This document shows positions 5,701 through 64,000 of a DNA stretch of 64,000 nucleotides, in pieces; the stretch's first letter is position 1; each line of letters begins with the position of its first letter. Both the position numbers and the translations under genes were made by a program. Source of the stretch: Haliclona indistincta (Eukaryota > Porifera > Demospongiae > Haplosclerida > Chalinidae). Under the pieces are notes generated by a model. It did not search any database. It was not told the DNA's origin and saw only the letters and a program-made list of their open reading frames with translations. The stretch spans positions 8,279,202 to 8,343,201 of the forward strand of contig OZ024788.1 in assembly GCA_964017065.1 (NCBI GenBank), read 5' to 3'.

Positions 5701-5934
5701 CAGTGATAACACTTGGCGAGTTGTACCCTTGTCCAGTATGTGAACGAACTTCTCTCTGCAGTGAGGGCATGGCTGACCAGCTTCCTCGAGACGACTAACA
5801 CATGGTGCGCACATCTTCACACCACAGCAATCCAGCAGGTGAGGATCACGGAGAGGAAGGAGACAAACAGAACACGAGAGAGTAACGGGAATAGTTTCTA
5901 CCAGATCACATTCGTATCCACGGAGCGAAGCCAT
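2747..5934 (-). CDS. TRAF-like adaptor / E3 ligase (RING, TRAF zinc finger, coiled coil, MATH), three exons
   Basis: Exons 5934-5398, 4252-4186 and 3231-2747 join in frame (lengths 537, 67, 485) to 362 residues. The RING starts at C21-x2-C24 (CSVCLLPLRDPHLLDCCG) and extends to about residue 60. A TRAF-type zinc finger follows at about 80-140 (CEWEGELRHLSKHE, CRYPCGQ). A charged coiled coil runs from about 145 through the short middle exon. The last exon is a MATH/TRAF-C domain, with the W-S-I-P-F-Y-S-G-P-G-G-Y-K-L-C-L-K-V-Y signature and the C-terminal D-C-I-K-F-R-V strand. Family knowledge: TRAFs trimerise through coil and MATH, bind receptor tails and ubiquitinate via the RING in innate immune signalling. 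I start at the ATG at 5934; a longer frame begins only with GTG. Intron 1 holds a palindromic insertion. A decayed RING copy lies downstream and a RING/TRAF-NHL relative lies upstream. Confidence 0.88.
3709..4022. mobile_element. Palindromic miniature element in TRAF intron
   Basis: The ends mirror each other over about 70 bases: GCCCCTTTT, GGGTCTG(G/T)CCAAATC and ATACAAAAAGTTGT on the left recur inverted on the right. The left flank AGTCAACAGTC resembles the right flank AGTCAGCAGTC, possibly an aged target duplication. It has no coding capacity. The exact ends are uncertain by several bases. Confidence 0.5.
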
Positions 5935-6403
5935 TCGCTGTTCGTCCACGTGGTGCAGCTGGTATAAAAATCGATAAAAATATTATCCCAGCCCCGCCCA
6001 GACACACCCTGATATTGAGGATGCAAGCACACCAGTGCACTTTTCCTACTGATGTGTGTGTTCCAATCCTTATCTTGACTGTACATGACTCAATGCAACC
6101 AGGAGGATGAAGTCTCGATGTGCTCCTGGTTCATATCTGGCCCATTCACTCATTATACTGAGTTATTTTTAGGCTACATCCATGACTGATGCGGACACTA
6201 TCACAATGCCCGTGACCGCTCAAAGTCAAGCTACTCATACATGCTGTCAAGAATTACACTGTGCGAGCGAGGCTATAATAAAACTGAGCTACTTCTAAAG
6301 TACAAGAAATGGTTTTCTGTCTTAGCTATAATTATACTAGACACCTTTTTGCAGCATGTTAGCTAATATCTTTTGACTTTTGGTTAGAAATAATTATTAT
6401 TAC

Positions 6404-6719: not shown

Positions 6720-6944
6720 CTCTGCTGATTGGCTGATTTCTTGCTTTTCAACAAGAAGAATGGTTCAAACCACACCTTCATCAAAAATTGGACCGAACCT
6801 CAGACGAGTAAGTTTAGGAACGAGACTGTTACTTTCAGCATGCTTTCAGCATTATCTATGCCTCGATCTACATGTATGCTGCGCTTTCTGTTTCAACTTC
6901 CAACGTAGACTTTCGCGTGAGTCAAGTGAATCCATGGACATGTG

Positions 6945-34200: not shown

Positions 34201-37200
34201 ATTTGACGCTATCAAAACTTAGAAAGCAAGTCACCATGATAATTATAGCGGTTCTCACGCACTCCCACCTACTCACCCACCCCCCACACACACATACACA
34301 AGGTTCCCAGTTCGATCCTGGGCGGTGATTCAAAATGAACATCCGACACAGAGACACAACTCTGCACACCTATCTAGTCACCATGGTGTAGTGGTCATCA
34401 CGTGTGTCTTACACACTCAAGGTCCCCAGTTCAATCCTGGGTGGTGACATTTTTCTCAATTTTCATCAAAATGAAACACTTGACAAGCAGACATAACTCA
34501 GCAACTGCTCAAGACCTATCTAGTCACCATGGTGTAGTGGTTATCACGTGTGTCTAACACACACAAGGTCCCCAGTTCGATCCTGGGTGGTGACATTTTT
34601 GTCGATATTCGTCAATTTTCATCAAAATGAAACACCTGACAAGCAGACATAACTCAGCAACTGCTCAAGACCTATCTAGTCACCATGGTGTAGTGGTTAT
34701 CACGTGTGTCTCACACACACAAGGCCCCCAGTTCGATCCTGGGTGGTGACATTTTTGTCAATAATTCAAAATGAAACACCTGACAAGCAGACATAACTCA
34801 GCAACTGCTCAAAACCTATCTAGTCACCATGGTGTAGTGGTTATCACGTGTGTCTTACACACACAAGGTCCCCAGTTCGATCCTGGGTGGTGACATTTTT
34901 GTTGATATTCGTCAATTTTCATCAAAATGAAACACCTGACAAGCAGACATAAATCAGCAACTGCTCACAACATATCTAGTCACCATGGTGTAGTGGTTAT
35001 CACGTGTGTCTAACACACACAAGGTCCCCAGTTCGATCCTGGGTGGTGACAATTTTTGTCGATTTTCATCAAAATGAAACACCTGACAAGCTGTCGTAAC
35101 TCAGCAACCTATCATCTACATCGGTTTACCAAGATCTTGCAACCGCCAAACTGCTGTCAGAAAACTGCTGTAGTCACCATGGTGTAGTGTTACACACACA
35201 AGGTGCACAGTTCGATCCTGGGTGGTGACATTTTATTTTTAACCACTAACTGATGCATAGGCACAACTCAGTGAATCAGTGACAGTTGCCATGACACATG
35301 GTATAGCGGATGTTTACATAACACATCAGTCTAAGAGCTACTGACGCCATTATTTTAACAAGATACAACATGTGGTGAACTCTGTTACCTAGTTGTTTGT
35401 GCACTAGCTACTAATTTGTGTTAATCATTGTACCTGCTGTTGTTTTGTGCTAATCTTTTGTTCCTAACTAGTGTTAATAATGGACCACCTGTTTTAGTAC
35501 CTTTATATTCAGTGTGTACTTTCTAGTGTACAGTTTTGAAATAGAGTGGAGTTATCATTCGATTAGTAACCCCTAATACCGCGACATCTCGGCAAGTACA
35601 TTACACAACAAGTAACAGTATTCATAATAATAATAATTACAGTGGAACTTCTCTAAGGCGGACACCATTGGGACCAACAAAAATCATCCATGGTGTCCTC
35701 TGGTCAGGGGTTTATTATACATTATGTGGGTAATATTTAGGATCTGTAAGTGTCCATTATAGAGGGATGAGAGGTGTCCTCTAAGAGGGGTTCCACTGTA
35801 TTTGAGATGAATGCAACACCAAGCAGTAAGATGACATACCTATTATAGCGGGAAATTTTCGTGAGAGAAAATTTTCGCGAATGCACGAGATAGAGAATTT
35901 CATGAATATTTTTGCGAATCAGCGCTATTGCCCTTATCTAAAAACAAGACAATCGTGGATAATAATTATTTTCGCGAATAGCCTGTAATTCGCGAAATTC
36001 GCGAAAATTTTCTCTCACGAAATTTTTTCGCTATACGGTACGTTGCCACAATCATAATAATTTATATTCTGTACCATTTCTGAGTGATGAATGTAATAGT
36101 CAGCTACAGCTGCAGCGCAATATATCACAGCTCGTGGTCCCAGTGAAGACAGCTCTTGTGAAATGCTTCTCAACAAATACAGATAATCGAATACACTCGA
36201 GAATGAGACTTGTAGAAGAAGTTTGGCAGCAGACACCTGAAAAAGTGACAGGAGGAGATCATTTTTATAATAAGAGAAGTGAATAAATAAGTGAGGTAAC
36301 CTTTTTGGATTGTTCCAAAGCAGCCTCAATTTTCTTTTGGAGTACTGGAGGTAGCTGTAGTGTGAGGTGTAGTCCATTCTCTTCTTTAGCTAACCAGTCC
36401 ATGAGAGGTTGAGATGAAAAGTGACGATTGTACGGAGTGAGAGAGGACACTCTGTGGAGAAAGATTACTGCATAGTTCAAACTGAGAAAATGTCTGATGA
36501 TACTGACTTAAAGGCGATAACTTGGTATATCAGATCATACAGTATTTGTGATTTAAAATACGCATTGAGACGGATAAACGGAGAAAAATTTGATTTTTAA
36601 TAAGCAAGAATGCAATTCAGGATGAACGATAAGCCAAAAATATAATAAACTAGTGTGGATACTCTGCCGACAGTGCTCCTCGTGATCCAGTACTAAAGTT
36701 GTCCAGGAATCTCACCGTACGCTTCTCCAGTGGTACAGTAGTTCCACCAGACTACAGAAAAAATCACTATCTATTCCAGTGTTGGAATTTTTATCCCAGG
36801 TCTAAATTTGAAATAGCCAAATTATACCCACCACGACATATGACATCACTTAATGATATTCACAACCAATAATGCGGTCTGTTAACTATTTCACGCAGTC
36901 TGCTAATTATATTCACAGAATAGGTATTATTCATCAGTGCAAAAGTGATACCCACACAATAAATGCATTACTGATGCAGCTCTGCACTGTTACTGCTTAA
37001 AATTGGAATTATGGTAAGAATCTCCAGGAAAATCTTTTTTTAATAAAAGGTTTTTTTGGAATAATTATTCAGTGTAATTATTACTGAATTAGGAACACAG
37101 CTGAGTAATAGCATGGTTTATGTAACTAAAATGTTGACAGATTTTAGCTTCACAATAATTATATGCATTTCTACATGCATGCAAAACATGCATGGTTCAC

Positions 37201-41708: not shown

Positions 41709-41781
41709 GTCACCATGGTGTAGTGGTTATCACGTGTGTCTCACACACACAAGGTCTCCAGTTCGATTCTGGGTGGTGACA
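41709..41781 (+). tRNA. tRNA-Val (CAC)
   Basis: Same body as the first array; loop CTCACAC. T arm has TTCGATT and AGGTCTCCAG, so one weakened T-stem pair. Confidence 0.88.
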
Positions 41782-41852
41782 TAATTTTTTGTCGATTTCT
41801 TTAAATTGCATCTGACGCACAGACAAACTTAGCAATTGTCTCACACCATCCT

Positions 41853-41925
41853 GTCACCATGGTGTAGTGGTTATCACGTGTGTCTTACACACACAAGGTC
41901 CCCAGTTCAATACTGGGTGGTGACA
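41853..41925 (+). tRNA. tRNA-Val (TAC)
   Basis: Loop CTTACAC, T loop TTCAATA. B box is degraded (AGTTCAATAC), so transcription may be weak. Confidence 0.8.
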
Positions 41926-42002
41926 AAATAATTTTTGTCGATTATTCTTTTAAACTTGCATCTGACGCACAGACAAACTTAGCTATTGTTCTACATCGTC
42001 CT

Positions 42003-42075
42003 GTCACCATGGTGTAGTGGTTATCACATGTGTCTAACACACACAAGGTCCCCAGTTCAATCCTGGGTGGTGACA
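42003..42075 (+). tRNA. tRNA-Val (AAC)
   Basis: Loop CTAACAC, base 26 is A, T loop TTCAATC; stems paired. Confidence 0.88.
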
Positions 42076-42124
42076 TAATTTTTTGTCCATTTCTTGCAAA
42101 CTTAGCAATTGCTCCATACCTATC

Positions 42125-42828: not shown

Positions 42829-43692
42829 TTATGGTTGCAAAAGTGTGTGGTCTGCTAATATCTCCCAGCCCCACCGTTTGTCAACACGTTTGGTCAAAAG
42901 ACCCTCAATCACTCCCCACAGCTTCTCTTTCTGGTTCACAGAGCTCTGGAGTGGATCGTGATGAAGCACAGTGTGTTTCAGCTCCTCTGGATTGATTGCA
43001 ATGAAGGGGGACGTCCCTGCAATCATCTCCAATAACAAACAACCGAGTGACCAGAGATCGGATGAAAACGAGAAGCAAGCAGACTGTAGCACCTCAGGAG
43101 CAAGATAAAAAGGGTAGAGAGATTGGACAGGAATGGAGGATCGTCTTGCTGAAGCCGCTAGTTCATGTACATCCATAACTTCATCTTTCATCATGGATGA
43201 AAAACACTCCTTAAGAGATTGGTCAAGGTCCGCAATAGTCCACTTCTCTTCGTTAACTCGGTGAGTGTGAATAAATTCTCCTAGTTTTAAAGAGCCAGTG
43301 GTGTCTAGGTAAACAACAGAGGGATGGAGGTTACAGTATACCAGTCCCATACTGTGAAGGTAATTGAGACCGCTGGCAAGATCCTTGAAAAACGGAGTGA
43401 TATTTTCAAGCGGAATCGGTCCATCAAGATCCATAACATCACTCAATGTTCCTCCACTAGCTAGTTCAGTCACTATCCACACATGCTGACGAGTTTCGTA
43501 CCACTCGAGGAATTTCAGCACGTTGCCATGGTCAAGCTGGTGATGAAGATGTACCGCTTGAGCAATCAGGGTCTTGTTCGCTTTTAGATATCGATGCACA
43601 CCAGCATATGTTACAGATCCCTTTCTTCTTCCTTTAAACAACTTATGAGCAGAAGAGGAAGGGAGGTTTCCGTACAACAGGTAGTTCTCCAT
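42829..43692 (-). CDS. ULK4: ULK4-like pseudokinase, kinase domain only
   Basis: Single-exon frame of 287 residues starting MENYLLYGNL and containing K-G-R-R-K-G-S, as in the ULK4 start. Kinase subdomains can be followed: G-N-V-L-K-F-L-E-W-Y-E, V-T-E-L-A-S-G-G-T-L, D-L-A-S-G-L-N-Y-L-H, Y-L-A-P-E-V-L and S-S-D-L-W-S-L-G-C-L-L-L-E-M. The catalytic HRD is Y-C-N, the DFG position is G-E-F, and no clear glycine loop is present, so it is a pseudokinase like ULK4. The long HEAT/ARM region of full ULK4 is not encoded, and the frame ends right after the kinase domain. Its start region is shared with a remnant at 38137. Divergent from NDUFA4 copy 2 (362 bp apart). Confidence 0.75.
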   Translation of the reverse strand: MENYLLYGNLPSSSAHKLFKGRRKGSVTYAGVHRYLKANKTLIAQAVHLHHQLDHGNVLKFLEWYETRQHVWIVTELASGGTLSDVMDLDGPIPLENITPFFKDLASGLNYLHSMGLVYCNLHPSVVYLDTTGSLKLGEFIHTHRVNEEKWTIADLDQSLKECFSSMMKDEVMDVHELAASARRSSIPVQSLYPFYLAPEVLQSACFSFSSDLWSLGCLLLEMIAGTSPFIAINPEELKHTVLHHDPLQSSVNQKEKLWGVIEGLLTKRVDKRWGWEILADHTLLQP

Positions 43693-43840
43693 CGACCGTT
43701 TGTCAGTTTATATTTCGCGCTGTAACTATAACAACCGCATACCAATGTGTCCTTTCCCTATACCGACCACGCATGCGTAGACTATTGAGGATCTAGGACG
43801 ACTGCACTGCACTCACGAGTCACGTCCACTGTAACAATTA

Positions 43841-46892: not shown

Positions 46893-49800
46893 TTAATTAT
46901 TATAGTACCGAAAAATAAAATGATTACGTGTACACTCATCAAAATATTCAATCTTTAGATTTTCTCGAACATCATATATTTTTCGTACGATTCTATCAAC
47001 ATTGCCTGTCAGTCGTAGTAACCTGATCGTTTTGTGTTCATTAACTACACGAATCAATTCAATGTACTGTTCGTGATTCCACTCGGAATATGGTACCATC
47101 AAATCTTCGAGACAAGACTGATCTTTGCTCTCTTGTAAACCAGCAACTAAATGTTCTATAATCGCATCATTGTATCCTTCAAAGTAACAAACTTTCAATG
47201 TGCAATTGGATCCAATTCCTTGAACTAGTTTGTTGATGCTACTAATGTCGTAGTTATTTATAAGAATAAGTGATAATTCTTTTAAGACACATTGCGGTGA
47301 TTGAAGAAATTGGACAAAGGCAGTGCAGGCATCATCTGGAATCTGACAAGATTTGAGTTTTAGTACTGTAAGAGAACTAAAATCTCCAGATTGAAGGAGG
47401 CTAGGAGTGAGAGTCAGATAGGACAGTTGAAGACACTCTAGTTTTGATGAAACTGTTAACGGAAGAGTAGCTAAACCATAGCAACTTTCTTCAGCTGCAA
47501 CTTTTATTCTATGTTGTGTCGGACATGCCTGGAGTTGTTCACATATATGTGACAAATTGTCAGAATGAGTGTCATAACGAAGTTTAGCAAGACAAAAGAA
47601 AACATTTTCTAACGAGCTAATGGAGGGAAGCGCTTCAAAGAGTGGTGCAAGACATGTTGTAGGCGTGACATGTACAGTAAGTGATTTCAACAGTGGACAA
47701 TAAGTTGAGATGTTAGTAAAAATGTCAGTACAATCATTCTCTTGTTCGTTTCTATTTTCAATTGTGAGTTCTACTACTTTCTGAGTATGAGGGTAAAACA
47801 ATGGAATGTACCTTGCTTCTGCATTGAGTACTGCTATATGACCAATACTGCTCCAGCGATGGTCAGAAGACATTACGAGACCTTTAGAAAGTACTTCAGC
47901 ATAATAAATACCATCAGCAAGCCATGTCCTATTGCTGTGTGAAATACAGTAGCCAGCTACAAAGAAATCTGTTGGATTAATATAAGATCGTGGTAAATTA
48001 AGGAGACCATATTTGCCAGTTTCTCTAGCTGGTAGATCATGGTTTAAAGAAAATGTTAGACGAATGAAATCAGGAGATTGTGTCTCGTAAAGTAGGTGCA
48101 TTGCTGATAAGAGTATTCCTTTTTGATTGTTAGCAATTTGAAGATATCTTGCTAATATTTGATCATCCCAACTGAAGTTTGTTAGCCCTGCCGTGAAAAG
48201 CATAACTGCCACATAAATTGACTTCGGCGGATTCCTTGAATAATTAATTTCATAACAATAATTAGAAAGAAATTGTTTTACAGGAAATGGTGATTGTAAA
48301 ACTGTTTGCAGCCTCTTGAATGTGTCTTGTTGTGAGCAATAGTAAGCGGCCATGTACTCCTGCAAGGTGACGTGCAAGAAGACAAAAGATTCAGATTTCC
48401 TGCCTGGATACACTTCCTCGACTCTCTGCATCAGACCAAAAGATTCAAATTCTGTTTCTAGACCAAGTGTTTGAAAATCTTCAGGAAACTTAAACACGTA
48501 CGTTTGCTGCTCTATCCCTTTTGCTGCTAATTGTGCAAGTGCCATAAAAGGTTCTTTTGCCTTTTCTGGCAGATCAGTAAAATTATCTATAACCCATTCT
48601 CTCTGACCATACTCATGATGGCAACATAAGTATCGTAGCAACATAGTAGTTACCAGGTCAGTATATAACTCCGTTAGGGTACTAGGGGAATACTCTGTAT
48701 CGCCATGGTTCCAATGGAGCCGATAAAGGTCTGTTATCATGACGCACTGAGCTGGTATGTGCATCAGATTGTGTATGTATGGATGAGAGGACAAGTAAGA
48801 TTCGAAATCAGTCAACAATTTACTATCATCACCACTGCAAGCTGAAGTGATGTAGTTCTTCATGTTTTCCTTTGTGAAATAAAAAGGCTGAATTATCTTA
48901 TCAGTAGGCTAGCGTTGATGCTCACAATGAACCTTGCTAAGAACCAAAAGGGTGGCACTTGGCAGCAATTCTTTATCAGTAAGTTGCTGATATACAGAGC
49001 CATGAGGTGGCATCTGTTGCTCATTCAGACGATCAAGACCATCAACAATAAGAAGAACTTGTTTGCCCTTTGAATTAACTAAATCTTGACATATCTTCTT
49101 CTTCAAAGCTTGGTCAGGATAGCACAGGAAGTCACTGAATAACTTAGCTTCACGAATTTGTTGGTTGCATAGATTAATGAAAATCACGATTGACCAGTCT
49201 TGCAGAAGCTCACCACTAGCCCATTTTTTACACATTTCCAAAGCAAAGGCAGATTTACCCACACCAGGAAGACCCTCGATAAAAACATGACTAGCTGAAG
49301 CTTCCTTGATGCATTTGCCAACTTCACTTATTTCTAACACGCAAGTACCTATAGTTCTAAAATTGTGCAGCCATAAGCGAACATCTCCCGTTTCTTTCCA
49401 CAGGCGATCAGAGCGATCAGAGCGTTCACAGTTGTGGAGAAGAATGAACGGCTGGTATTCTCTTAAAGAAGGCCCTTCAAAGTATGTGTCATCCACCTTG
49501 TGTTTGTATACATACTTAAGATAAAGCTTGAACAATTCTAGAGGGTTATTATCTTCATCTACATAAAAGTTAGTCAGTGCTGCAGAGATAAGGGAATAAA
49601 AATAAAATAATGTAAATTAGTAATCTGTAATATCTTGACATCAAGAATGTAGTGTATTAGCCTAGTACCTAGTCGTTAAATTAACGCCTAGTATCAAATG
49701 CACACGCATGCGCGAATAAAATGGGCGGGGACAGCTATAGCATGCTTTCACATCGTGCCAGTACGGAGATCTAACCAACATTGGATACTCGTAGCTACAG

Positions 49801-52800
49801 GATTGTATGTCCAAGTTTGCTGCCAACTACGTCTTGTCGTTTGTTAGTATTCGAATTTCTTCGTCAGCAAAACTGAAGCACGAGGTCAGTGCACATGTCA
49901 CAAACGAGAACGGAAAATATCCGGTATTACTGGAATGTCGGGAAAATTTCGCGCATGCGTATACATTTGAAACTAGGCGCTCTATTTGGCGCCGAGGTAC
50001 TAGGCTAGTAGTGCATTAGCTACAACCGGTATCGCAACAGTGTACCAAAGTATCTTGAGCCCCGTTTACACACACCCTATCCGGATTAACCCAACCCAGA
50101 TACAATCCGGATCACGTCCCGTTTACACGCGAGCCAAAATGCAGGTGATTTTGATGTGATAGAAGGACTATCTTGTGCATAACAGAAGAGATAACCTTGC
50201 TATACACTCCATGCTTGCTTTGTTGCAACAATAAGGACCGGAATAGTCAACCAGCAAGCTACTTTTGGTAAAACAACTGCACAGCCGACACGGTAGCCTA
50301 CAATACGTCTAGAAATCGGTTTTTTGCTATTACAAGACTTGCCTTGGCTAGGAGAGGATAGCTAGAGAAAAGAACATGCATCACCGTCCTTCTGCTGTGC
50401 AGTGGTAACTACAATTCATCAAGAGAAGACTAGCAACAGCGCGTTTGAACTCACTTTATCGCGTACAACTGTTCACACGTGGACCCGATCCGGATTAATC
50501 CGGATTCAATCCACCTCCGGATGTGGATTGAGCAATCCGGATTGAATCCGGATCGATCCGGATAACCTCGCGTTTACACGCAGGTCGATCCGGATTCAAT
50601 CCGGGTTGGAGGTGCCGTGTAAACGGGGCTTTGGATCCGAACTGAACCAACAACACACTTACAATGCATTTATACACACAGTAGGAGTTACATGACATGA
50701 CAGGAGTTTTGTGACTTTACAAGACAAACAATGGTTCAGTCAGAACGGAGCCGGACACTACAAAGAATACTATAGAAAGATAATTAATGGGAAATAGTGG
50801 CCTGAACTTTTGGCCTGTAACAGCTTTTAACCATCTTTCCCCTGTAAAAGCACGTACCTTTATTGTTAGCCTTGTACCCGGGCCTTCAAGAGAGGAGCAT
50901 CATAGATGATGCCCTTGTGTACACTGCACATAATGCGTATTAATTTATGCTTCTTCGTGGTCTTTTCTGTGTTTCAAGACATTGTATACCAAGGCTGATA
51001 GTTATCTACAACATACATGTAGGTTTAACTGATTACGTCCTGCACGTGACTTGTACAGAGGTGTAGCAAGCTTATGCTGATTGGGCTGTGCGTACATATA
51101 GGTTATACCATGAAAAGGAGGGCAATACGGGATTTAAATCACCGCGGAAACCGATGATATAGACGACCCGAGCGCGAAGCGCGAGGGCGTCTATTTCGGT
51201 TTCCAAGGTGATTTTAATCCCGTATTGCCCGACTGTTTCATGGTATAAGGTATTTATACCATACTGCGCTCTCAGGTAAGCTTCCCAAGACTACCAAGCA
51301 CTGAAACAAGCCCTCTACTGTTGCGAGAAGCCAGTAGTGTAGCCGTTTCCATCATCTAGTGACGATCGTGTAAGAGCGCGTCGTTTGAATTCATAAGTTA
51401 GTGATGACGCTTCAGTTTACTATCTTCTAGCCGTGTAGAAGCGCTACTTTGGGTCTCACTAGAAGCGCTTAAGCATGGAGAAGCTAACTACGAAGTGTAA
51501 GTGCGTGAATCAAATCTTTTTCCAAGCTACGACAGTATAACTGTTTTGTTCACAACGCGTCCATTCTGCGGTGTGATAAGTGAATTTGGAGGTGTAATAA
51601 GTGAACTGGGAGGTGTAATAAGTGAAATAAATCACCTCGTTTTGAGCAATCTGATTGGTCAGAAACATTGAAGTATGGTATAATGCAGGTTATAGTACAG
51701 TGGAAGCTATCTAATCTGGTAACCCTTGGGACCAACCGCTGTGGCCTGATTAGACAGGTTGGCTGCATTACATCTGACCTTTGTAATATGGTTGATAATG
51801 TGGTTTTGGCTGCATTATACAGTTTAAGGCTACGTTCACACGTAGTTGGTCAGTCTAAAAACAGGAAATGCATTCGGATTCAACTCCCTCGTTTTTGCTT
51901 TTTACACTGCTCCGTTTTGGCAGTTTTGCAAGCGGAAGCAAATGGAATGTGGGCGTGGTGTTTTCGTGCGAGCATGCTAGCACTCGCTCATACGCATGAA
52001 CCAGCGAAGAAATCGGTATTTTTCTTTGATAGATGTTGTTCCAGGGCTCGTGCTAGTATTCTCTGCGAGTATAAAGGCTGAGATGTGCTCTTATCAATAG
52101 TGTGTATCCGCTTTTGGTGTTAATACACGTGCGTTTTTCCTGCCTCCGTCTTCCAAGTCTCCACTTAAATTAAGTCTCCGTTTTCAGGCGAGTTTTCATA
52201 TGTGTGTAAACGAGAGGCCTAAACAGAGACAAATGTCTGTTTTTTTGCTGAAATCGTCTTCATGTAAACAGTGGCTTATACAGACAATGCACATTGCAAC
52301 CACGCTGTTGCTGTAGTAAAGGATAGAGAAGTTGCCCAGAATGTAAGAGTAAACCCATCTTCTACTTCCTTGGATACGATAAGAATGTCAGCTTTTGCAA
52401 AGTGATGGGAGTAAGAGTGAATCGTGGTATGAGGCTACAGTTGTTTGCGAAGATCTTGCATAACGGAAGCGAAAGTGGAAGTATGACGTCAGCCAATCAA
52501 ACGCATGAAAGTGTGACTAACTGAAGCTGTACACGTGACGAAAAGTGAATTTGATTGGCCAGCGTCACACTTCCGCTTTCGCTTCTGTTATGCAAGATCT
52601 TCGCAAGCAACTGTAGGTCTGGAGGTTCTTTGTACAGTGTAACCTCGATTATCCGGACAGCTTTGGCCACAGAAAATTTCTAGACGTCCGGATAACCGAA
52701 AAAGTCCGGATAAAATGGTGGCCGTTCACAAGCATCCAAACGATAGCAATACAGGCTTAGATCGTTGAGATCGCACTCTCTTGTTATGCAAACATTGTTT

Positions 52801-55800
52801 CCTACCATGGAGAGGTGAAATAAACCAGACCGCTTGGCTACAGAACTGTAAAAAACAACGAGCAAACAGCAGCGTGGCTGTTAATTATATTCATAACGTG
52901 TAAAATTGTAAGCGCTAATAATATTAATTTAATTTTGTACATACCAAATATCTAATTATCCGAAAACAAGCTCCTCCAGCTAGTCCGGATAATCGAGGTC
53001 CGGACCCTCGATTATCAATGGAATCACTCGACCCTCGAATAATATGTGTGGTGAACGTTTGGGACCCTCCACTTCTGGCTGAAATAGAAAGGTGACCGGC
53101 TAATTCAGGTGACCGCTTAGACAGGTTTGACTGTATCGATGTTTCTTATGCTATCCACATTAATAATCCATCTCAGAGACTACAACATGCTCATCTTACA
53201 GCCATTCTATGCAGCGCCAAAATCTAACTACATCTGTGAATATAGGATTTTATTCATGAACAAATCTGACTGGTAGTTGACAACTATATGTCTATGAATG
53301 GCAATGTTTGCTAGACCTTCTCCCAACCATCCATCCAATTATCAGTAGGCCGTGTGGAGAGGGTCAGCTGTTAAAGTAACTATCATTATGTGGTCCTGGT
53401 ATAACCATAGACATACAAGAAAATAAAAAGATTTCTAACGAAATCAAAAGGATGTAGGGATAAATAAATCTGCTACTGGTCCACAATGTAAACCAACAAG
53501 GAGCAAGCATGGAATGGTAACACGATTGACTTGCTAACAGACCATAGATCCCTACATCAGTGGCTGTACATAACATTTTGACTATACTATAATTATTTTG
53601 TCACAAGCTAAATTCAATTCAATGCATGTCAGGTGTCAGTCAATAGCAACTAGCAGAACTGCTGTAGTCAGCCACTGATGTAGGGATCTATGGTCTGTTA
53701 GCAAGTCAATCGTGTTACCATTCCATGCTTGCTCCTTGTTGGTTTACATTGTGGACCAGTAGCAGATTTATTTATCCCTACATCCTTTTGATTTCGTTAG
53801 AAATCTTTTTATTTTCTTGTTTGTGTCCTTTTTTCTTTTATAGTGAGTTTCAAATTTTTGGTGCAGTTCGAATTCGGCAAGATAATGTATCTCTTTTTTG
53901 TTTCCATCATTGGTTTGGTTTGCTTTTCTTGATAATTGCTTTTTAACCTGTGGCTCCTAAATACTGAAACTAGCTCATGCATTCATGCATGCTGAAGCCT
54001 GAATGCACAGCATACTAGCCCCGCCCACTCTGGTTTAGAGTTTTCTGTATGGCTGTGATACTATCTGGCAAGCAGCAAAACGGTGATACTACACGAGCTT
54101 ACTCTGTGAGTTGTTCTTCGAAGACTCCAGACGCCAATATGCGCTCTTCATACGGCGATACTCTACAAGTGTGTTTGGTCACGTGCGTATTACGTAATCA
54201 CAATAATGGCGTCTAACACTTAGCTGACAACTGTTCGTGATCGTGAGCTCGTCAAATGTATATCGTCGTTTCGCTAGAAACTAAGTTCAAAAGGCACATG
54301 CCAGGAGAATTTCATGACTGTTCGTGGGTGTTTTGGTCTCGACACTGCTCGCGTAAAGGCGCTAGGCGAGTTGAAGAAAGAAAGAAAGAAAGAAAACGAA
54401 GATGACGAAGGTCGATTTTCACCGTTTCCAGGTTCGTCACTTTAGTAACAATTTCGAGCAATCTCCTTGCTACTGTAAGATGGGGCAACGCCAGAGAACA
54501 GATCTAAGTGTCTTTGGACGTATACAATTCATCACCAGGCGAAATATCAGCGTTTGAACGCTAATACATTGTATGTAGCCGCCATCTTTTTTTCTCGTTC
54601 ATCCCTACATAGGGAGGCACTACCGTGCCTCCCTAATAGTATCCCTTAGAGAGACTGGCAACAGGCAAAATTTCACCGTGTTCCATGTTACAATTTAGCT
54701 TTTTATGAGTGTGAGTGAAGGACCGCCAAACAATGCATAATAGATAATCAGAACCGAGAATTTAAAGCAGCAGGAGATTGACACTAAAGAAGTGAATGCA
54801 GTCTGGTTCCACAGACGGGCAGCTAAACTGGACGGTAGAACGAAACCTAGAACAGCTACAGTTTATTTATAAAAGAGCAACACACGAGCAGTGCAGTCAG
54901 CCAAGTTTCATCGCACGGTAGTACTACACTTAGTCAATGAAGCACCATGGTGCAGATGCCTCGGTGGAATTGCATGCATACTGCACACTGGACATGCTTT
55001 GACCGTCAACACACAGCAACTACATACAGCTACTCCATCAGCAGATGATGATTGTAACAGATTTATAAAGTACAATAGTCATACAAGCTGGCAAAAATAA
55101 CAGAAGCCAATGGTATGCTACCACAGTGTAATAGTTAGTTGGGTGTGCACAAAGCAGCCATGCTTGTAGCAGCTAGCTTTTTTCGGTTTTGCTGATTTTT
55201 GCTCGGACCCGCCACGCTATCCTGTAGTCCAGATCAAACCTACACTCTGCTAGCCAGTTAACCATGGACACATTCGACTTCGGAGAAGTTCAGATCGCCA
55301 GCAACGGTAAACAAAGTAAGCAAATCACGCCATAACTCACGAACAAAGCTTTAATTCAAAATCTAAGACCATCAAGTTCGAGATATTAACGTGTTATGTC
55401 TATATTGCACTTACCACCAGCTGATTCTTCGCCGTCTTTCAGAACTAGAGCGGACAGACACACAGACACGCACGATTACTGTATGCCTCGTGGCTCCGCC
55501 CACCGAGGCATAATAACAGGACGTAGTAATACAATGATTCTGTGTGATTGCATGCGGTCTGTGTTTGTATCAGCAAATTCTAGTACAAAAAGCTGGTTAC
55601 AGGAACACGACCATCTTTCAGTGCAACTCACTAAATCTCTTAGCACTATTCCTGCAGTCCTAGCTACTAGCGGTCGACAAAGAGCTGCCACAGTGTACTG
55701 TCCCAACGTGTTTGCCAAGAGCTGTCCTAGCAACCAACACCTTGTTGGGAGGATACCAGAACAGACATGTGTAAAACTAATGTTTAACCCATAACGCAGA

Positions 55801-58800
55801 TTGACGCCCCCGGACTCATGTCAAAGAGCTTGTAATGTAAACGTAAACGCATTGGGCAATGCTGTAATGTAAACGCATTGGTCAATGCGCATGCGTTGCC
55901 AGTCCCTTTAAAACATACTAAGTCTATGGTATAACATAACCTATACTTACACAACAGCGATATACAAAATTCATTGTCATTGGTCATTACCTTCTTTAGA
56001 GTGCTCAAGCTTTCTCTGTTGTTGTTGAAAGTGTGCCATCATGTTGGTTTGTACTTTCAGAAGTCTCTGTTTCTCCTTTTCATTTTTGACTCTTTGCTTT
56101 TCTTTTTCGTCTTTACGTGAGTTCTTTTCATAATCTATGTTCCTCTGGATATGCTTCTCAAAGATAGATGGATTCGTATCTAATATATTATTAAAAATTA
56201 AGTGTATTCTGGGAATTCAATCTGGCTGTAATTAACCCTCGGTGCATGCGCCAGATGGATACAGACTTGCTCTGTGTGTCACAACACTCATTTCTAGGCA
56301 CGAACTAATGGTAAGTGCATCAATGGATTTGATTTTGATTCGCTAAAATGTTCTGATGTGCTCTCCTTCATGTAAGTCCTGGGACTATAAAATTAGACAA
56401 TGCGCTGTGTCAATCTGATTGTATCAAGCCAGATCAAGCCTGCGCAGGCTGTGCTTACAGCTTATTCATTGCATGCACTTTTCAATTTTCTCGTGACTGC
56501 AAAATATTTTTGCAATGTAAAAGTGTCGTTTCAATAGTTTTCTGTATGAAACTTGGAATAGAGGTAGACAAATCCCATCTCTATCCAAATGTCAATTCAG
56601 GAGAAAAAAATGCACTGTCACACCCCAGGCCAAAAAGTGGGTGGGTGGGTTGAGAGGGTTTTTACACAAAAAGTCATTTTGCGTAAATTTTAGCCACTAC
56701 ATTTCTGGTGCTCTGTAGAGTTGTTTTACAGGTTCTTGACACCAGAAGAGGTCTATATCATGCAGATATAACTATTATTTACAGTGTGTATATACATACA
56801 CTGTAAAAAGCAGGTAAAATGCATCATGCATTATGCTGTGAAGGGTGTGGACTGGAGGCGTGGCTAGCATAATGCATGCCAAGCAGCTTCTTCTGAGCCG
56901 GGCAGTTATTCTACTCACCAGCTTCTGAAGTAGATTCAGCTGCACTCAGCTATTGAGTACGTGTTGTTCTTCCGTCAAAAGAAGCTATCTAATCGTGCAG
57001 CATCGGGTGCGTTTTCTGCGACGAGCACTCTCTGAAACGTGCGGGTAGTCGCTTAATCTTGGCCACATTCACAGCGGTAGCGCAGTCGCTTTCTGATCTC
57101 AGCTTGCTGCAGCAGTGTTCTGCATGATCGCGATCGATACTACACTCGCGCTATCAACTCACCCGCGCTATCGACGACGAGCTACGTGTACGCGAACGTA
57201 ATCTGTTCATGAATATTAATTAGCTCTCATTGTGAATTTCATTATATGACAGGTTATGACGTGGTGGGTGGGTAATGGGGCTATGTAAAAAACCAGCCTG
57301 GGGTCGAAAATTTCCGCCACTGGCACCCCCTGCACTGTCATGTTTTATGACAGCAAACATGACAGGAATCGTTGCTACTATTGTGTTTAAGAATGAACTC
57401 AAACATGTCTTCGAGTTAACATTTCAACTTACTTTTCACTTTACTCCTAGTAAATAATATAGTGTTTTTTCTATTGAGTCAAACTCGAGTATATTTTAGA
57501 GTTAAAAGAATTATGAATAGCCAGATGCTTATACTCTTTGCTTGTGTAAAAGACTAAAAGTAGTGCGATAACTTCTACCATATGTGCATGCAAGCACTGT
57601 GTACACATGAGACTTGTCTTCTTTACTGTGCTAAAGATGATCACTACATGCTGCACCAAGCAGGCTAAACATTATAAATGGCCGCTGATCGCTCACTTTT
57701 GTTCTGGACTTGCTTTCTTTCAGCCAACATATTCCTGCTACTTTTCACCCACATAGTTGTCTGTGACCTTCTGCGTTATACCAAAGCTGCTGACTGCCTA
57801 AGTGCTGTTGCCATCGAGATGTGGTGTATTGTCGTACAAAAATCATGATGTATGAACTTATGGCACTACTGGTTAGCTTCAATGGAGAGAGGGCCTGGTG
57901 CCCCAGGCCCCCAACTGTCATTATTTTTTCTCGCTCTTGACCTTGCAATCTTTGTGAATGTAAGCGAGAGAATTTTTGTGGACTTTCTAGCTGCAAAACA
58001 GCAAAAAAATTATAAGTAAGCTGGAGGAACTGTAGAAATATATATCTCCGATTTTTTGGGGGTTTACCGTTACCTTTCGCCAAATAACTGTTTAAAAGTG
58101 GTTCCGTACAAGTTTACACTATTTTCCCTGTTTTGCCTTCATAGATGGGGTAAAAGAGTGTGGGGGGTACGCTGTTGTTCTCCTTCTTGTTACTACGGAA
58201 GAAAAGAGTGTGGGGTACACTCTTTTTCTCCATCTTAATGAAGGAAGAAAAGAGTGTGGGTATACTGTTTTTCTCCGGGTGTAGGTAAAACAAGAAACGA
58301 AACAGGAAACCCCGCCCACCCATAATTACTACTAAACCCTAAACCCAAACCCAAGACCCTAAAACGTTCGGGTATTGGTAACACCAGGAATGAGGGAACG
58401 GGAAATATGCATTGAGTGGGCATGGTCTCGCACAAACCCTAAACCCAAGACCTTAAAAACCTTCTCCTAACTGCGCAAAGTTGGGAGGGTCGTCCTAAAC
58501 CGGGCCTTCGGCCCTTGGTAAGCCTAAGGATCGTCGGGAGGGTCGTCCTAAACCGGGCCTTCGGCCCTTGGTAAGCCTAAGGATCGTCGGGAGGGTCATC
58601 CTAACCGGGCCTTCGGCCCTTGATAAGCCTAAAGATCGTCGGGAGGGTCGTCCTAAACCAGGCCTTCGGCCCTAGCTAAAGATTGTCAGGAAGTATGCCA
58701 ACCTAACAGCACCCAATATTACCCAGCACCCAGCGACCTAGTATTCTAATGTGCATTTTCAGCAGAGTGGGACTGGTGGGCTGCAACTTTTGCTTATGCT

Positions 58801-61800
58801 CCGAATTTCTCCATCATTTCTCGTTCACCGTTCCTCATTCCTGGTTTTACCACAACCCAAAACCTTTGCCTAACGGCGCCCAGTATTCGCCTAATGTGCC
58901 CAGTATGGACCTAACGGTGCCCAGTACTATTCTGGCACGTTAGGCGAATACTGGGCGCTGTTAGGTGAATACTGGGCACCGTTAGGCGAATACTCATCAA
59001 GATTAACAAAGGTATTATCATTATGCCTGATGCGCCTGTCCTTGCAAGATCGCTGCCAGTCAGTCACTGGTCATTCTACTTCCTACGATTCCTCCTTTTT
59101 TCCATCTTCCATTGCCATGTGGAACAATCTTCCTGTGGACATTCGGGAGAGTTGTACTGTTTTTTCCTTCAAAAATCTGTGGCTCTAATATCTAACTTAT
59201 AGGGTACTATTTAAGATTAGCATTTTTGCTATTTTTGGTATCCTTGCTACATGCAAACTTATTATAAAAAACAATACTGGGCACCGTTAGGCGAATACTG
59301 GGCGCTGTTAGGCAAATACTGGTCACCGTTAGGCGAATACTGGGCGCTGTTAGGCAAATACTGGGCACCGTTAGGCGAATACTGGGCGCTGTTAGGCAAA
59401 TACTGGGCACCTTTAGGTGAAGGTTTTAGGGTTTTGGGTTTAGGGTTTAGTAGTAATTATGGCCGGGCGCAGTTTCCTGTTTCGTTTCTTGTTTTACCTA
59501 CACCCGGAGAAAAACAGTGTACCCCACACTCTTTTCTTCCTTCATTAAGATGGAGAAAAACAGTGTACCCCCACACTCTTTTCTTCCTTCATTAAGATGG
59601 AGAAAAACAGTATACCCACACTCTTTTCTTCCGTAGTAACAAGAAGGAGAACAACAGTGTACCCCCACACTCTTTTATCCCTTCATAGATGGCAGCGTCA
59701 TAATAACAGTGTAGTTTTATCCTATCCCTTTAAAAGTGGAGGTTGAATGTACATGTATAGGTTAACCCATGGTTAACGACGGGGTTAATTTTATCGCCTC
59801 GAGGGGGTTACCGAGTTTATATTGCGTACTGCTGAGGTGCCATGGATTAACCATTTCGTAGCCCAGGAAGCTTGAGAATACTGCTCTTATGGTTACTAAA
59901 CGAAGCGCTCAAGATATTAGAGCCTCCATAGAAGTCACCAGAAGCGAATGACAGCACGTTGCTGAAAGACGGCAATGTAATCTTGCGTGAGTTTTTCGAC
60001 AACACCATATTGTTGCTACGGTGTTGCTATGTGACGTCACTTCCTGGAAATACTCATATTGCCCATCCATAGTATACGGGATATAACCACTGAGCAGTGC
60101 CTTTATCTTACGGTCGTCTGGGCTACAATTTTGCTTACTTTAGTTACAGTGTTTTTGCATACCAAGTTAAAATCTTAAAGTGGAATTATGATAATTTGAT
60201 AGAGGTCGTTGCTGCGTCGACTAGACATTATCGTGTTGAGTGGTGAGCTTTATTGCCGCAGCATATGAAACAATGATACAGTAAAACGTTTCGATCCGAG
60301 GATCGTCATCAGTTGATATGCTGCGGCAATAAAGCTCACCACTCAACACGATAATGGAATTATGATAATTGACCTATCAACACAAAATATGAATAGAAAA
60401 TTAATTTGATCATTCAATGTCATGCTTTCATTTTTGACTTGCTATGCATAAACTTCAAAAACTGCTGTACAGGGCTTTGAAAATACCTGCAGCCAACTAC
60501 ATTTCAGCTACATTACTTGTCACACAATTACAGCATCGTAAACTGACCTGCAGTCTCAGAGTCAGTAGACTCTGAGGATTTGTTTTCTATAGTTAGTGGA
60601 GGAGCACTGACTGCATCTTTGCAATCATGATTCAGTTGTTTGGCAGCGCTAGAACTAACTGTACCTATAAAACAAAATAATACTACATGCACATACATGT
60701 ATGCACACCCATATACTGACCAGTGTCTGGAGATGCCTTTTGCTCCTTAGCTGATACAGAAATACCGACTTCATCAACATTGGTATCTTCTTGTGGATCT
60801 GATTGAAAAACATAAGCCGCTCAATCAACAATTTGCATTTAATATTCGCCAGCACTCATAATTATATAAGTACTTCACATGCTCACATGCTGACAAGCTC
60901 CAGGATATTATATATACAGACATCAGATAACTGTGTTGGTTACTAGACAGATTACTGAATCTCCACGTGAGATTTGCATGACATTCAGTCAACGTCATGC
61001 ACACTAGCCAAATCTGAACTAGGGAGACCGTGCACTAGAGAGCTCACGACTTTCGAAAATTCCTTCAACTGCCGTCTATCAATCAAAACAGGCAATTCAT
61101 GCTGGTAAGTGTCTTGCATACCGTTCTCTCTCCATAGTTCATACCACGCGCACCATAGAAGAAATTAACCCTATTCGCTCGTGCAGTTGCACGTGTACGC
61201 ACGTGTGCTACAATAGTCGTTGTGACATCACAATGACTTGCCGTGTTAAGTTAACGGTAAAACATGCAACCTCCCTAGTGAGTGTGAAAAAGCCTTTCCC
61301 AATAACAGGCAATGGAATGTAATTAAGCATTCTTAAAAGTGAATTCACTTCCGGAGTCCCATTTAGCTCCTCCCAGCGGCTGTAATGTATGGGAGTGATT
61401 GAGAAAATAAACGAACTTTAGACTGCGCGTGCTCTTACACCTTACAGGCACAAGCTTTTAAGGTGACGGATAGCAATTTGCCTAATTACAAAAATGTTTT
61501 TATTCACTGTGCAAAAAGCAAACATATTACAACGCTATGAAGACTAGCAACGAAGACGCCACACTGTTCTTTCCTTTGGGGGCTATATCCAATGTCAGGC
61601 ACAGCGCAATACAGCGACAGCAGACAAGACTAGAGGGGCACTAAATGAAAAACGGAGCACCAAATTTCGGACGTGTTGTACGTAACAGTGTAACTACAGA
61701 GCCACACATTTACCGATAGGTTATCATCCTCCGGAGTTCCAGAATATACTGGCGAGGACGTCTGGGTAAAACGCAAAAGAGTCTTGAAACGGTCACCATT

Positions 61801-64000
61801 TTGCTGTCTTTTATCGACATTTCGAGCCATAACTTACGAACAAACCGACTTTCAGGCAAGTTTATAGTCTCTGGAACTCCGCCAAGGACCGTACAACTGG
61901 ACTAGCCAGGTTAAAACTATTACTTACTGAAGCTCTTTGCAAAATTTGGCGCTCCGTTTTATAACTGCTTCCCAGATCACTAACCGCCATAGACACCAAC
62001 TGCGAACGCCCCACGCATGTGAGGCCGCCTATGCATGTTCTCTGGCAGACTAGCCTGGCAGACACTAGGGCCAGGGCTAAACTACATCCTGTTTACACAG
62101 CACATGATGTACTGTAATTGGCTATTCTTTACTATAAACTTCACACATGTTCCACGTTGACTACCAATGCTGCTGGGGCACATCTTTGTCTTCGTTCTAT
62201 CGTTGCCTACCAACGCTAAACACTCTACACCGACAAAGAGGAACTGCTAGCACATGGTTGACGCTTCCACAAGGCTGTGCTTCTTTTAGTAACGCGTTCA
62301 TTCCAGTTATACAGCTATGTCTGACATCGCTAATCAACTAAATCACAATTGTGCTGATTCTAGTTTGTATTAATAGCCAGGCTTGTGCACTTGAAGTTAC
62401 CCGATTTTTGCAAGAATAATCAAAACCCAGCTTGAATACGCTGAGCCCAAAGTTCGTCCATTTTTTCAATAATTCCCATACATTACAGCCGCTAGTAGTG
62501 TTGCACCGATATGCAGATACACTATCTGTATCGGCAGATATGCATGTATCGGTACAGAATCTGAATCGGTCAAGTGATATCGGAATCACAGATACACGTA
62601 ACCATGGACAAATCAGCATTACATATTGGAAAATTCATATCAAAGGTCACCAATATGGGCAATAATTCTTCTCAATGACCACAAGGTCTCTTACAGAATA
62701 TATCACGAGAGTTGTCAAAATTGTTGCAAAACGAGTCTTTTAAAAATTAAATGACTATACTCAACTCTCAAACTGAATTGATCATTTAATGCATTGATAT
62801 CTGTATCGGTATCGATATCTGCAGTATTTTGACTTAAACATCGGTAAATCGGAATATCGGCAAATTTGCATATCGGTGCAACACTAGCCGCTAGTGGAGC
62901 AGCAGAAAGACTCTGGAAGTGACGTAACGTTTAATTAACTCCACACATACATTCCATTGGCTTATTGGGAAAGGCTTATTGCTAAATCACACTCATTGTA
63001 TGTACTGTACCTGGAGGAGGAGGAGGAGGGCAGGCATCAATAATGGCTTTGGTAAGAGTTCCTGGTAGACCAGCATCAGTGATACACTCAGCAAGAGCTG
63101 ACCAAGTGCGTGGAACAGCTGAATCAGTAGCATCATTATCATTACGAGACAACCAGTCTTTCAGGACTGTTCGAGCAAACACATCTTTCTCTTTGTATTC
63201 TTTTTCATATTTACTCACAAGAACATCGTCTTTTAGTAGCATGTGAGCAAAGTCTTCGCATTGCCATTGTTCCAATGAAGTAATCCATTGAATGACTTTA
63301 AGGCTAGATCCATCAGGCTTCTTCAGATTAAGTAACTCATTATATGAAGGTCTGCCAGCTGTAGACAAAAGCATAGTAAACTTAGTTTTGCAAACAAGAT
63401 CCAATACACTAAGAAGTAGGTCCAGTAAAAGCTGTCAAAAATGATGCCATTGACGTTTGTCAGATTAGCATCCCAAAAAAATGGCCGATGGCTGACCATT
63501 ATAATCCCCTCTGCTCTGATTGAACACCAGATATTGTTCAAGGTTAAAAAATGACAGAAAGCAACATCAAGGGGTCACCTAGTATCACCCGTGTCCACAT
63601 ACACGACCAGTATCTAGATCAAAATTTGACTCAGTATACTAGTACAAATGAATGGGCACGCACAGAAACATAACATGCACAAACATGCGCAATAATTAAT
63701 TTACTATTTGGATCAAACAATCAAGTGCAAAGAAAGCATACAATCAAACAATCACCAACGTTTTATAGGTCAGATTTGGGACGATCATGGTCTTGATTGT
63801 ACATGGTCGCGGATATGTGGCCACAGTACTCGGTGAATTATATTTCACTTACATGCTAGTGGTCCGGGATTAGTTTCCACATCACCGGAGATGATCAGAG
63901 CCTGAGAGATGATCACTATCAGTAGTACGAGTCTGACTAGAGCCTCTCGTAACAGACAACTACTAAGCAAGCCACGAACTTGAGAAAAGGAGAACCAGAA
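46893..64000 (-). CDS. NLR immune receptor: 2A peptide, Death, coiled coil, NACHT, LRR (5' end outside window, one internal TAG)
   Basis: Exons (minus) >64000-63853, 63358-63011, 60798-60721, 60658-60548, 56179-55991 and 49579-46893; every junction is phase 1 and stays open. Exon 1 is a hydrophobic segment (LVRLVLLIVIISQALIISG) followed by DVETNPGP, a 2A ribosome-skipping motif. Exon 2 is a Death domain (W-I-T-S-L-E-Q-W-Q-C-E-D-F-A, V-L-K-D-W-L-S-R; ending in poly-Pro). Exons 3-4 are Ser/Glu-rich linkers and exon 5 is a charged coiled coil. The last exon has Walker A G-L-P-G-V-G-K-S, Walker B L-L-I-V-D-G-L-D, the NACHT helical parts and about seven leucine-rich repeats. Such receptors sense microbial ligands and oligomerise through NACHT. 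A TAG at 48911-48909 interrupts the NACHT region before the frame continues; it may be a pseudogene, an allele or an error. Confidence 0.85.
50058..50630. mobile_element. 573-bp miniature element with ATCCGGAT-rich inverted ends
   Basis: Left AGCCCCGTTTACAC and right GTGTAAACGGGGCT are inverse; inside, ATCCGGATT blocks mirror each other. TTG flanks both sides (50055-50057, 50631-50633). No ORF of note. Confidence 0.8.
51103..51248. repeat. 146-bp near-palindrome
   Basis: TTATACCATGAAA...GGGCAATACGGGAT...AAATCACC...GGAAACCGA is mirrored by the right half, folding around GAGCGCGAAGCGCGAG. A likely foldback miniature element. Confidence 0.8.
51692..53133. mobile_element. Possible 1.4-kb composite element with nested miniature elements
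   Basis: The left end ACAGTGGAAGCTATCTAATC and the inverse of the right end (ACAGTCAAACCTGTCTAAGC) are similar and flanked by TA. Inside are a TA-flanked palindrome (52438-52613), Tigger-like ends (ACCTCGATTATCCGGAC at 52643 and inverse CCGGATAATCGAGGT near 52985) and a MITE-like block at 51828-52290. The order of insertions is not settled. Confidence 0.4.
52438..52613. mobile_element. 176-bp palindromic miniature element, TA target
   Basis: CAGTTG(T/C)TTGCGAAGATC with TTGCATAAC(G/A)GAAGCGAAAG mirrored on the right; TA duplicated at 52436-52437 and 52614-52615. Confidence 0.85.
53415..53820. repeat. Perfect inverted repeat, 152-bp arms, 102-bp centre
   Basis: 53415-53566 and 53669-53820 are inverse copies without a difference that I can find. 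No transposon termini are obvious. Perfect identity means a very young event, gene conversion or an assembly fold-over. Confidence 0.85.
58484..58675. repeat. 53-bp minisatellite, about four copies
   Basis: GGGAGGGTCGTCCTAAACCG GGCCTTCGGCCC-type units, each with the perfect hairpin GGGCCTTCGGCCC, repeated four times. Confidence 0.85.
59010..59190 (+). pseudogene. LINE 3' coding fragment inside the foldback-like element
   Basis: Plus strand reads S-Y-D-S-S-F-F-P-S-S-I-A-M-W-N-N-L-P-V-D and F-S-F-K-N-L-W-L then stop, the C-terminal signature after LINE reverse transcriptases. Confidence 0.6.
60227..60355 (-). ncRNA. Hammerhead-ribozyme-like inverted repeat (tentative)
   Basis: Perfect 40-bp arms 60227-60266 and 60316-60355 enclose 49 bases. 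On the minus strand these read CTGATGA, a small GATC-CTCG-GATC hairpin and GAAAC. This has the order of the conserved hammerhead core, with the long arms as helix I. Helix III would be very short. The unit lies between 16-base direct repeats (TGGAATTATGATAATT at 60181 and 60355). Confidence 0.4.
60799..63010. other. NLR intron 2 (2.2 kb)
   Basis: Contains the hAT-type miniature element at 62496-62886; otherwise no gene was recognised. Confidence 0.4.
62496..62886. mobile_element. 391-bp hAT-type miniature element
   Basis: Ends TAGTGTTGCACCGATATGCA and inverse TGCATATCGGTGCAACACTA; 8-bp target duplication GCCGCTAG at 62488-62495 and 62887-62894. The interior is rich in GTATCGG repeats, and there is no ORF. 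Confidence 0.9.
63860..63883 (-). other. 2A ribosome-skipping motif DVETNPGP
   Basis: GAT GTG GAA ACT AAT CCC GGA CCA on the minus strand gives D-V-E-T-N-P-G-P, the invariant 2A core, preceded by a leucine/isoleucine-rich segment and S-G. In the known mechanism the ribosome skips the Gly-Pro bond, releasing the upstream peptide and starting a new chain at Pro. Confidence 0.88.

Follow-up and report, generated by a model that had tools for sequence, protein, structure and literature searches.

The window, as the whole stretch of 64,000 nucleotides from the demosponge Haliclona indistincta is called here (assembly GCA_964017065.1, contig OZ024788.1, positions 8,279,202 to 8,343,201), carries on its minus strand a gene of six exons, all of which join in phase 1 in the gene model built from the sequence. 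Exon 1 encodes a leader with a 2A (StopGo) motif; it occupies 63853..64000 and runs on past the window edge to an ATG at 64294 (L009:394), which lies 294 bases outside the window in the adjoining chromosome sequence, giving 442 coding bases. An A stands at three bases before this ATG, and an in-frame stop is found ten codons 5′ of it. On the minus strand the exon ends in LLREALVRLVLLIVIISQALIISG-DVETNPGP-LA, followed by a GTAAGT donor at 63852. The core DVETNPGP (63860..63883), in which skipping is predicted between G and P, fits the definition of the StopGo core, (D/G/C/N)(V/I)ExNPGP (PMC12846837). The hydrophobic stretch directly preceding the core (63884..63943, part of LLREALVRLVLLIVIISQALIISG) forms a helix in the model of a paralogous leader, a model of pLDDT 61 that is useful only for this helix adjoining the 2A. 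Exon 2 (63011..63358) encodes a Death-fold domain and is followed by two small linker exons, exon 3 (60721..60798) and exon 4 (60548..60664), the latter with a similar stretch in the paralogue L050. Exon 5 (55991..56179) encodes a charged linker, a probable coiled coil as judged by eye only, and exon 6 (46893..49579) encodes NACHT and the C-terminal region, its end being set by the acceptor CTGCAG/CACTG. Short tandem repeats lie at 58483-58673, 59273-59421, and 59506-59686, within the long intron that separates exon 4 from exon 5. The original prediction that an exon ending in DVETNPGP joins a Death exon in phase 1 is borne out by this model, the model reproduces its splice coordinates (63853/63358 and 55991/49579), and no stop intervenes between the true start codon and the 2A, the frame being open from the ATG at 64294 through the 2A and Death exons.

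The domain assignments draw on searches with the window exons and with their relatives. NACHT is matched in exon 6 by Pfam (PF05729, E 2.5e-15), and a profile from three paralogues matches NLRP proteins in a PDB search. No LRR family exceeds the Pfam cut-off for the window copy or for its paralogue L009, and the best LRR trace in a paralogue, that of L010 (E 0.19-0.46), lies under the cut-offs. The window Death exon itself has no Pfam match; PF00531 is matched by three of the nine exons of the alignment containing its relatives (A2), with a best E of 6.1e-6. A model of the window Death exon built on this alignment reaches a pLDDT of 85, and death domains take the first seven places among its PDB matches (Foldseek E 0.15-0.62, none <=0.001; probability 0.85-0.99). 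As judged by its family and by this predicted structure, exon 2 is a death fold. A PDB search with the Death profile returned weak CD81 matches, which are taken as chance. The CARD-like exon that follows some other leaders of this genome gave no relevant match in a PDB search and a CARD match in two of its six members (best E 0.0097), and its CARD identity is tentative.

Exon 6 consists of two open frames divided by an in-frame TAG at 48909..48911. Because of this stop in the NACHT exon, the window copy is probably truncated or dead. The NACHT copies of L009 and L010 are open, unlike that of the window, and the neighbouring gene in L009 combines the same leader with a Death exon and a NACHT frame open over 908 codons. 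That the window gene alone is expressed as a truncated Death-NACHT protein, rather than being dead, is a rather unlikely reading: exons 1-5 and the acceptor of exon 6 are intact and the first frame of exon 6 yields a NACHT match across 118 residues, but the TAG falls within the NACHT region, and stops are present in three of the 13 NACHT matches of the window cluster, as expected of decaying copies. The predicted run of three further phase-1 exons to a NACHT-LRR exon stands with regard to phase and NACHT, with the frame of the NACHT exon interrupted and its LRRs unconfirmed.

Genome-wide, the pattern D(V/I/M)ExNPGP occurs at 189 sites, as against no site for each of three control patterns (reversed, with G for the first D, and with A for the last P, i.e., NPGA), which rules out chance as the source of the motif. 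With no G-first form in the genome, there is also no such variant for NACHT exons lacking a D-type 2A to use. Positions are available for 187 of the 189 sites, and the letters of 88 distinct sites were examined after removal of repeats with identical surroundings; setting aside 24 rows by eye (10 mobile-like, 14 from an array on C4) left 64 leaders. Since the NACHT and Death lists comprise only the best-scoring candidates (the best 102 of 631, 121 of 624, and 150 of 1372 scored), the proportions that follow are rough. Among the NACHT matches listed, going downstream from the 187 placed sites leads to a known same-strand NACHT exon within 16 kb at 63 of them; conversely, going the same distance upstream from the NACHT exons leads to a same-strand 2A for 62/154, as against 1/154 for the opposite strand. 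Uniform random placement, for which the lengths of four contigs were approximate, gave a mean of 2.1 and a maximum of 7 such exons in 300 runs, compared with the 62 observed. A same-strand 2A <=16 kb downstream is found for 40/154 NACHT exons among the matches listed, a placement that tandem arrays would give. The original prediction had called for a search of the genome for other NLR first exons with a 2A, and these are indeed numerous: counting for each NACHT exon only the closest 2A upstream of it gives 58 of the 187 placed sites, across 13 chromosome bins of 1 Mb. On the same rough reckoning, 92 of the 154 NACHT exons listed are without a 2A within 16 kb upstream, and large NACHT groups, e.g., those at C9:0.8-0.95M and C6:8.9-9.4M, show no D-type 2A <=16 kb upstream.

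The association extends to the exons next to the leader. Among the matches listed, 29/52 near-full-length relatives of the window Death exon have a 2A <=2 kb upstream and none has one on the opposite strand, the remaining 23/52 being without a 2A within 2 kb upstream. A Death- or CARD-type exon lies <=1.5 kb downstream of 46/88 sites and antisense to 0/88, as found with profiles partly built from these same exons. Furthermore, a phase-1 GT(A/G)AG donor occurs <=6 codons after the core in 50/64 leaders versus 1/24 mobile or array sequences, at a fixed place in 46/64, and (A/S/C)G in an L-rich context directly precedes the core at 84/88 sites. At the L091 locus (G000:C2:3860600-3863264, minus), the leader is short and hydrophobic and carries DVESNPGP; it is followed by a Death-type exon and by a caspase domain (Peptidase_C14, PF00656, E 2.3e-19). 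These parts, whose unity we infer, likely constitute one 2A-Death-caspase gene.

At least three unlike leader types are present in the genome, the shortest leader having 25 residues (L068) and the longest 168 (L063), core included. Type (a), to which the window leader belongs, reads M(I/V)xxxxWRA(R/K/T)(I/L)G, followed by a variable middle, the hydrophobic stretch, and the 2A; its N-terminus in the window family is a conserved MISVELWRARIG, and 13 examples show no variation at M1, W7, R8, A9, and G12, nor in the core except at two positions. This type stands before several Death exon types and, in L066, before a CARD-like exon. Type (b), found at C4:15.0M, C6:4.2-4.6M, and C4:13.8M, is a short leader with LIPALYSKGVVS, which resembles LIPVLYSKGLIS of the next, CARD-like exon. 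Local alignment of the two scores 46-60, a value unreached in 2000 shuffles for five of six leaders and reached in 3-12 of 2000 shuffles for the sixth, L029. This likeness suggests that the type (b) 2A originated within an incomplete duplicate of the effector exon. Type (c), at C1:11.4M, reads MxRLxSRANAMICALTQRLLLLSG-DVELNPGP, and type (d) consists of single short, signal-like leaders, e.g., L068 and L091. When leaders are counted as membrane-like if their Kyte-Doolittle mean over 19 residues near the core is >=1.6, 41/64 reach this value and 23/64 fall below it with the 2A kept; types (b) and (c) score 0.7-1.2, again with the 2A kept. Leader start codons were set by a simple rule, by which L016, L029, L033, L061, and L067 start at a late Met and are cut short, and their hydrophobicity, among the 23 low values, comes out too low. 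The window leader has 145 residues, and its hydrophobic stretch runs from about residue 118, away from the N-terminus.

The window gene belongs to a cluster of 13 2A sites on the minus strand at C6:8.34-8.57M. All 13 have a phase-1 GT(A/G)AGT donor at codon +2 after NPGP, and 11 have a Death-type exon <=1.5 kb from the 2A by profile search; the other two are L057, which carries a third Death-like type, and the site at C6:8565314, from which the N-terminal block has been lost. The usual MIS start is missing from the cluster leaders L050 and L053. Pooled dN/dS for 11 window-cluster leaders is 0.19 in the first 41 residues, 0.61 in the middle, 0.33 in the helix, and 0.0 in the core, where the synonymous difference is 0.22; for 24 leaders the corresponding values are 0.34, 0.62, 0.67, and 0.11. 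The hydrophobic helix is therefore not strongly constrained (0.33 and 0.67, with few synonymous changes). The leaders for dN/dS were picked by the 2A motif, so that only a search with the leader protein is free of that bias. Such a search gave 43 matches that include the N-terminal block (E <=0.001), 42 of which have a 2A within 700 bases, as do 11 of the 12 leader matches that end short of the 2A. Leaders found by their N-terminal block thus keep the 2A, i.e., the motif is retained where the leader is.

A 2A at the N-terminus of NLR proteins has been described in sea urchin as SpNLR2A, where skipping yields a cytosolic product and a non-skipping mutant enters the exocytic route (Roulston et al., 2016; PMC4981915). 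The leaders reported there have 26 residues and are hydrophobic at the N-terminus (PMC4981915). The sponge genes share with SpNLR2A a 2A N-terminal of Death-NACHT in one frame (in the window gene, up to the TAG) and an L-rich stretch with SG before D(V/I)ExNPGP, and the share of 2A is given as ~35% (85/241) of sea urchin NLRs, compared with the 62/154 NACHT exons here, among the matches listed. They differ in the 145-residue window leader with its distal hydrophobic stretch and conserved N-terminus, as opposed to a signal of ~26 residues, in the presence of several unlike leaders, one class of which is apparently derived from a CARD-like exon, and in a 2A before a likely Death-caspase gene. 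They are probably a larger, more varied case of the mechanism known from sea urchin. Among the L-rich StopGo motifs of RNA viruses, motifs 2 and 6, the latter being active in assay (Li et al., 2026; PMC12846837), likewise consist of an L-rich stretch ending in (A/S/C)G and then a D-type core; unlike these motifs in polyproteins, the sponge motifs stand in host genes with an intron between the 2A and the next domain. Cellular use of StopGo is called rare, with sea urchin named as the cellular case, in the available text of that January 2026 paper (PMC12846837). The NLRs of another sponge, Dysidea avara, similarly comprise large NACHT and Death repertoires with tandem copies, together with membrane-spanning segments, and the available part of that work holds no mention of 2A (PMC12909245). 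The occurrence of 2A among NLR proteins in general is noted, with citations, in a review (PMC11512398). In the portions of the literature at hand, published 2A in NLRs was found for sea urchin only, and an earlier mention is possible.

Directly visible at the locus are a leader exon, an in-frame 2A in an L-rich (A/S/C)G context of the sort that supports StopGo in viruses, a phase-1 intron, and a death-fold exon next to it. From these features, and from the 2A being kept in leaders identified independently of it, we consider, with a probability of about 0.78, that the gene is one of many Death- or CARD-type NACHT genes in which a StopGo leader is the first coding exon, the leader is released, and a cytosolic receptor is made. 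The translating ribosome would fail to join G and P, the leader (144 residues in the window gene) would be let go at the skip, and the ribosome would continue to produce a cytosolic receptor with an N-terminal proline. Where the leader has a long hydrophobic stretch, a non-skipping minority may become membrane-bound. At the moment of the skip decision this stretch would still lie within the ribosomal tunnel, so that skipping would precede binding of the signal recognition particle. The original prediction had instead proposed a dual-targeting switch as in sea urchin. On this reading, a fixed proportion of the receptor would evade skipping and, still joined to its leader, be secreted or exported along the secretory pathway, the remainder being cytosolic. 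Its premise, a 2A leader on a Death-fold/NACHT gene, recurs here in many copies, and the switch itself is a tentative proposition with the odds somewhat against it. Both modules of the tested sea urchin case, 2A and NLR, are present (PMC4981915), membrane-length hydrophobicity adjoins the 2A in 41/64 leaders, a few leaders (e.g., L068 and L091) are short and signal-like, and sponge NLRs with membrane-spanning segments are reported (PMC12909245). Nevertheless, the stretch of the window family starts near residue 118, the CARD-like leaders and the C1:11.4M family keep the 2A at scores of 0.7-1.2, and the six residues preceding the core are in any case required for StopGo (PMC12846837). As a general account, an N-terminal signal peptide was rejected, many leaders having the stretch far from the start or a low score. 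Since 23/64 leaders lie below the membrane-like mean and yet carry the 2A, skipping looks like the shared feature of the leaders, with membrane targeting at most additional; the distal position in the window gene and the low values of types (b) and (c) place skipping first and dual targeting second, as something that some families may have in addition.

A translational pause or a folded part of the peptide might also be what keeps the motif, with weak or absent skipping. How efficiently StopGo works varies with its context (PMC4981915; PMC12846837), and this reading is nonetheless improbable in view of the complete canonical core with L-rich (A/S/C)G in 84/88 sites, common to unlike leaders. 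Still less probable, and indeed highly unlikely, is a chance placement of retrotransposon or mobile-element remains in front of NLR genes. Elements of this kind exist in the same genome, namely L079 and L080, where a PHD finger and, 2.4-2.7 kb 3′ of the 2A, a reverse transcriptase are encoded, and further mobile-element 2As occur at L083, L084, L092, and L088, the last with a WRARIG N-terminus. The 2A of APE-type non-LTR retrotransposons, reportedly described by Odon et al. in 2013, is of the same motif kind as that seen here. In L079 and L080, however, the 2A continues without an intron into the PHD-finger frame, whereas the NLR leaders stop at a splice donor; the window 2A is followed by such a donor and a Death exon, not by a reverse transcriptase frame, and no reverse transcriptase lies near it among the best 150 places scored. 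The strand-specific association with NACHT and death-fold exons, the phase-1 donor at a fixed place in 46/64 leaders, and the core kept in 42/43 argue against such remains, and the association and the splice donors rule them out as a general account. A mobile origin of the leader module with later host use is possible.

Released StopGo leaders, on the preferred reading, leave the conserved N-terminal block to be accounted for. It is seemingly needed by neither skipping nor targeting, and its constraint suggests that the leader itself may be a product with its own role. If so, every translation of a window-family mRNA would produce one small WRARIG protein, hydrophobic at its tail, for each cytosolic receptor. 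A broader, rather unlikely proposal sees StopGo leaders as a module that animal death-fold immunity has shuffled and acquired on more than one occasion, with the leader itself a product; were it true, some membrane-spanning sponge NLRs may be receptors whose 2A leaders are in fact removed. Dozens of 2A-NACHT genes, unlike leaders, and a Death-caspase gene in one genome would point to a recurrent device of animal innate immunity. This opens the question of why immune receptors use StopGo, be it for an equal leader product, for removal of a targeting signal, or for a defined new N-terminus of the death fold. In practice, gene models would wrongly label 2A-led receptors as membrane-bound or secreted.

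Several further observations were made on 2A sequences of other kinds. The L081/L082 region (G000:C4:10634000-10653300) is a repetitive array with 17 D(V/I/M)ExNPGP copies, 250-2900 bases apart, in short frames with stops, and looks like a degenerate repeat, not a polyprotein gene. A multi-copy element at L083, L084, L092, L011, and L031, whose leader starts like MTSHRVRSRPRHIL, combines its 2A with repeat frames and others resembling zinc fingers; there is one weak OB-fold match, and the element is perhaps Helitron-like. At L088 (G000:C9:5286600-5289222), a MIDIAEWRARIG leader with DIEMNPGP leads without an intron into a frame of a perhaps mobile kind; the NLR leader type is shared with another gene class. 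Elsewhere in the window lie a frame for a RING/TRAF-zinc-finger protein (5356-5982, minus), a RING/filamin/NHL-repeat protein (6930-8867, plus), and a protein kinase frame (42829-43707, minus). Rfam gave no match at cut-off on the window, and eight tRNA-Val genes with three anticodons are recognizable in two tandem groups at 34377-35051 and 41709-42076.
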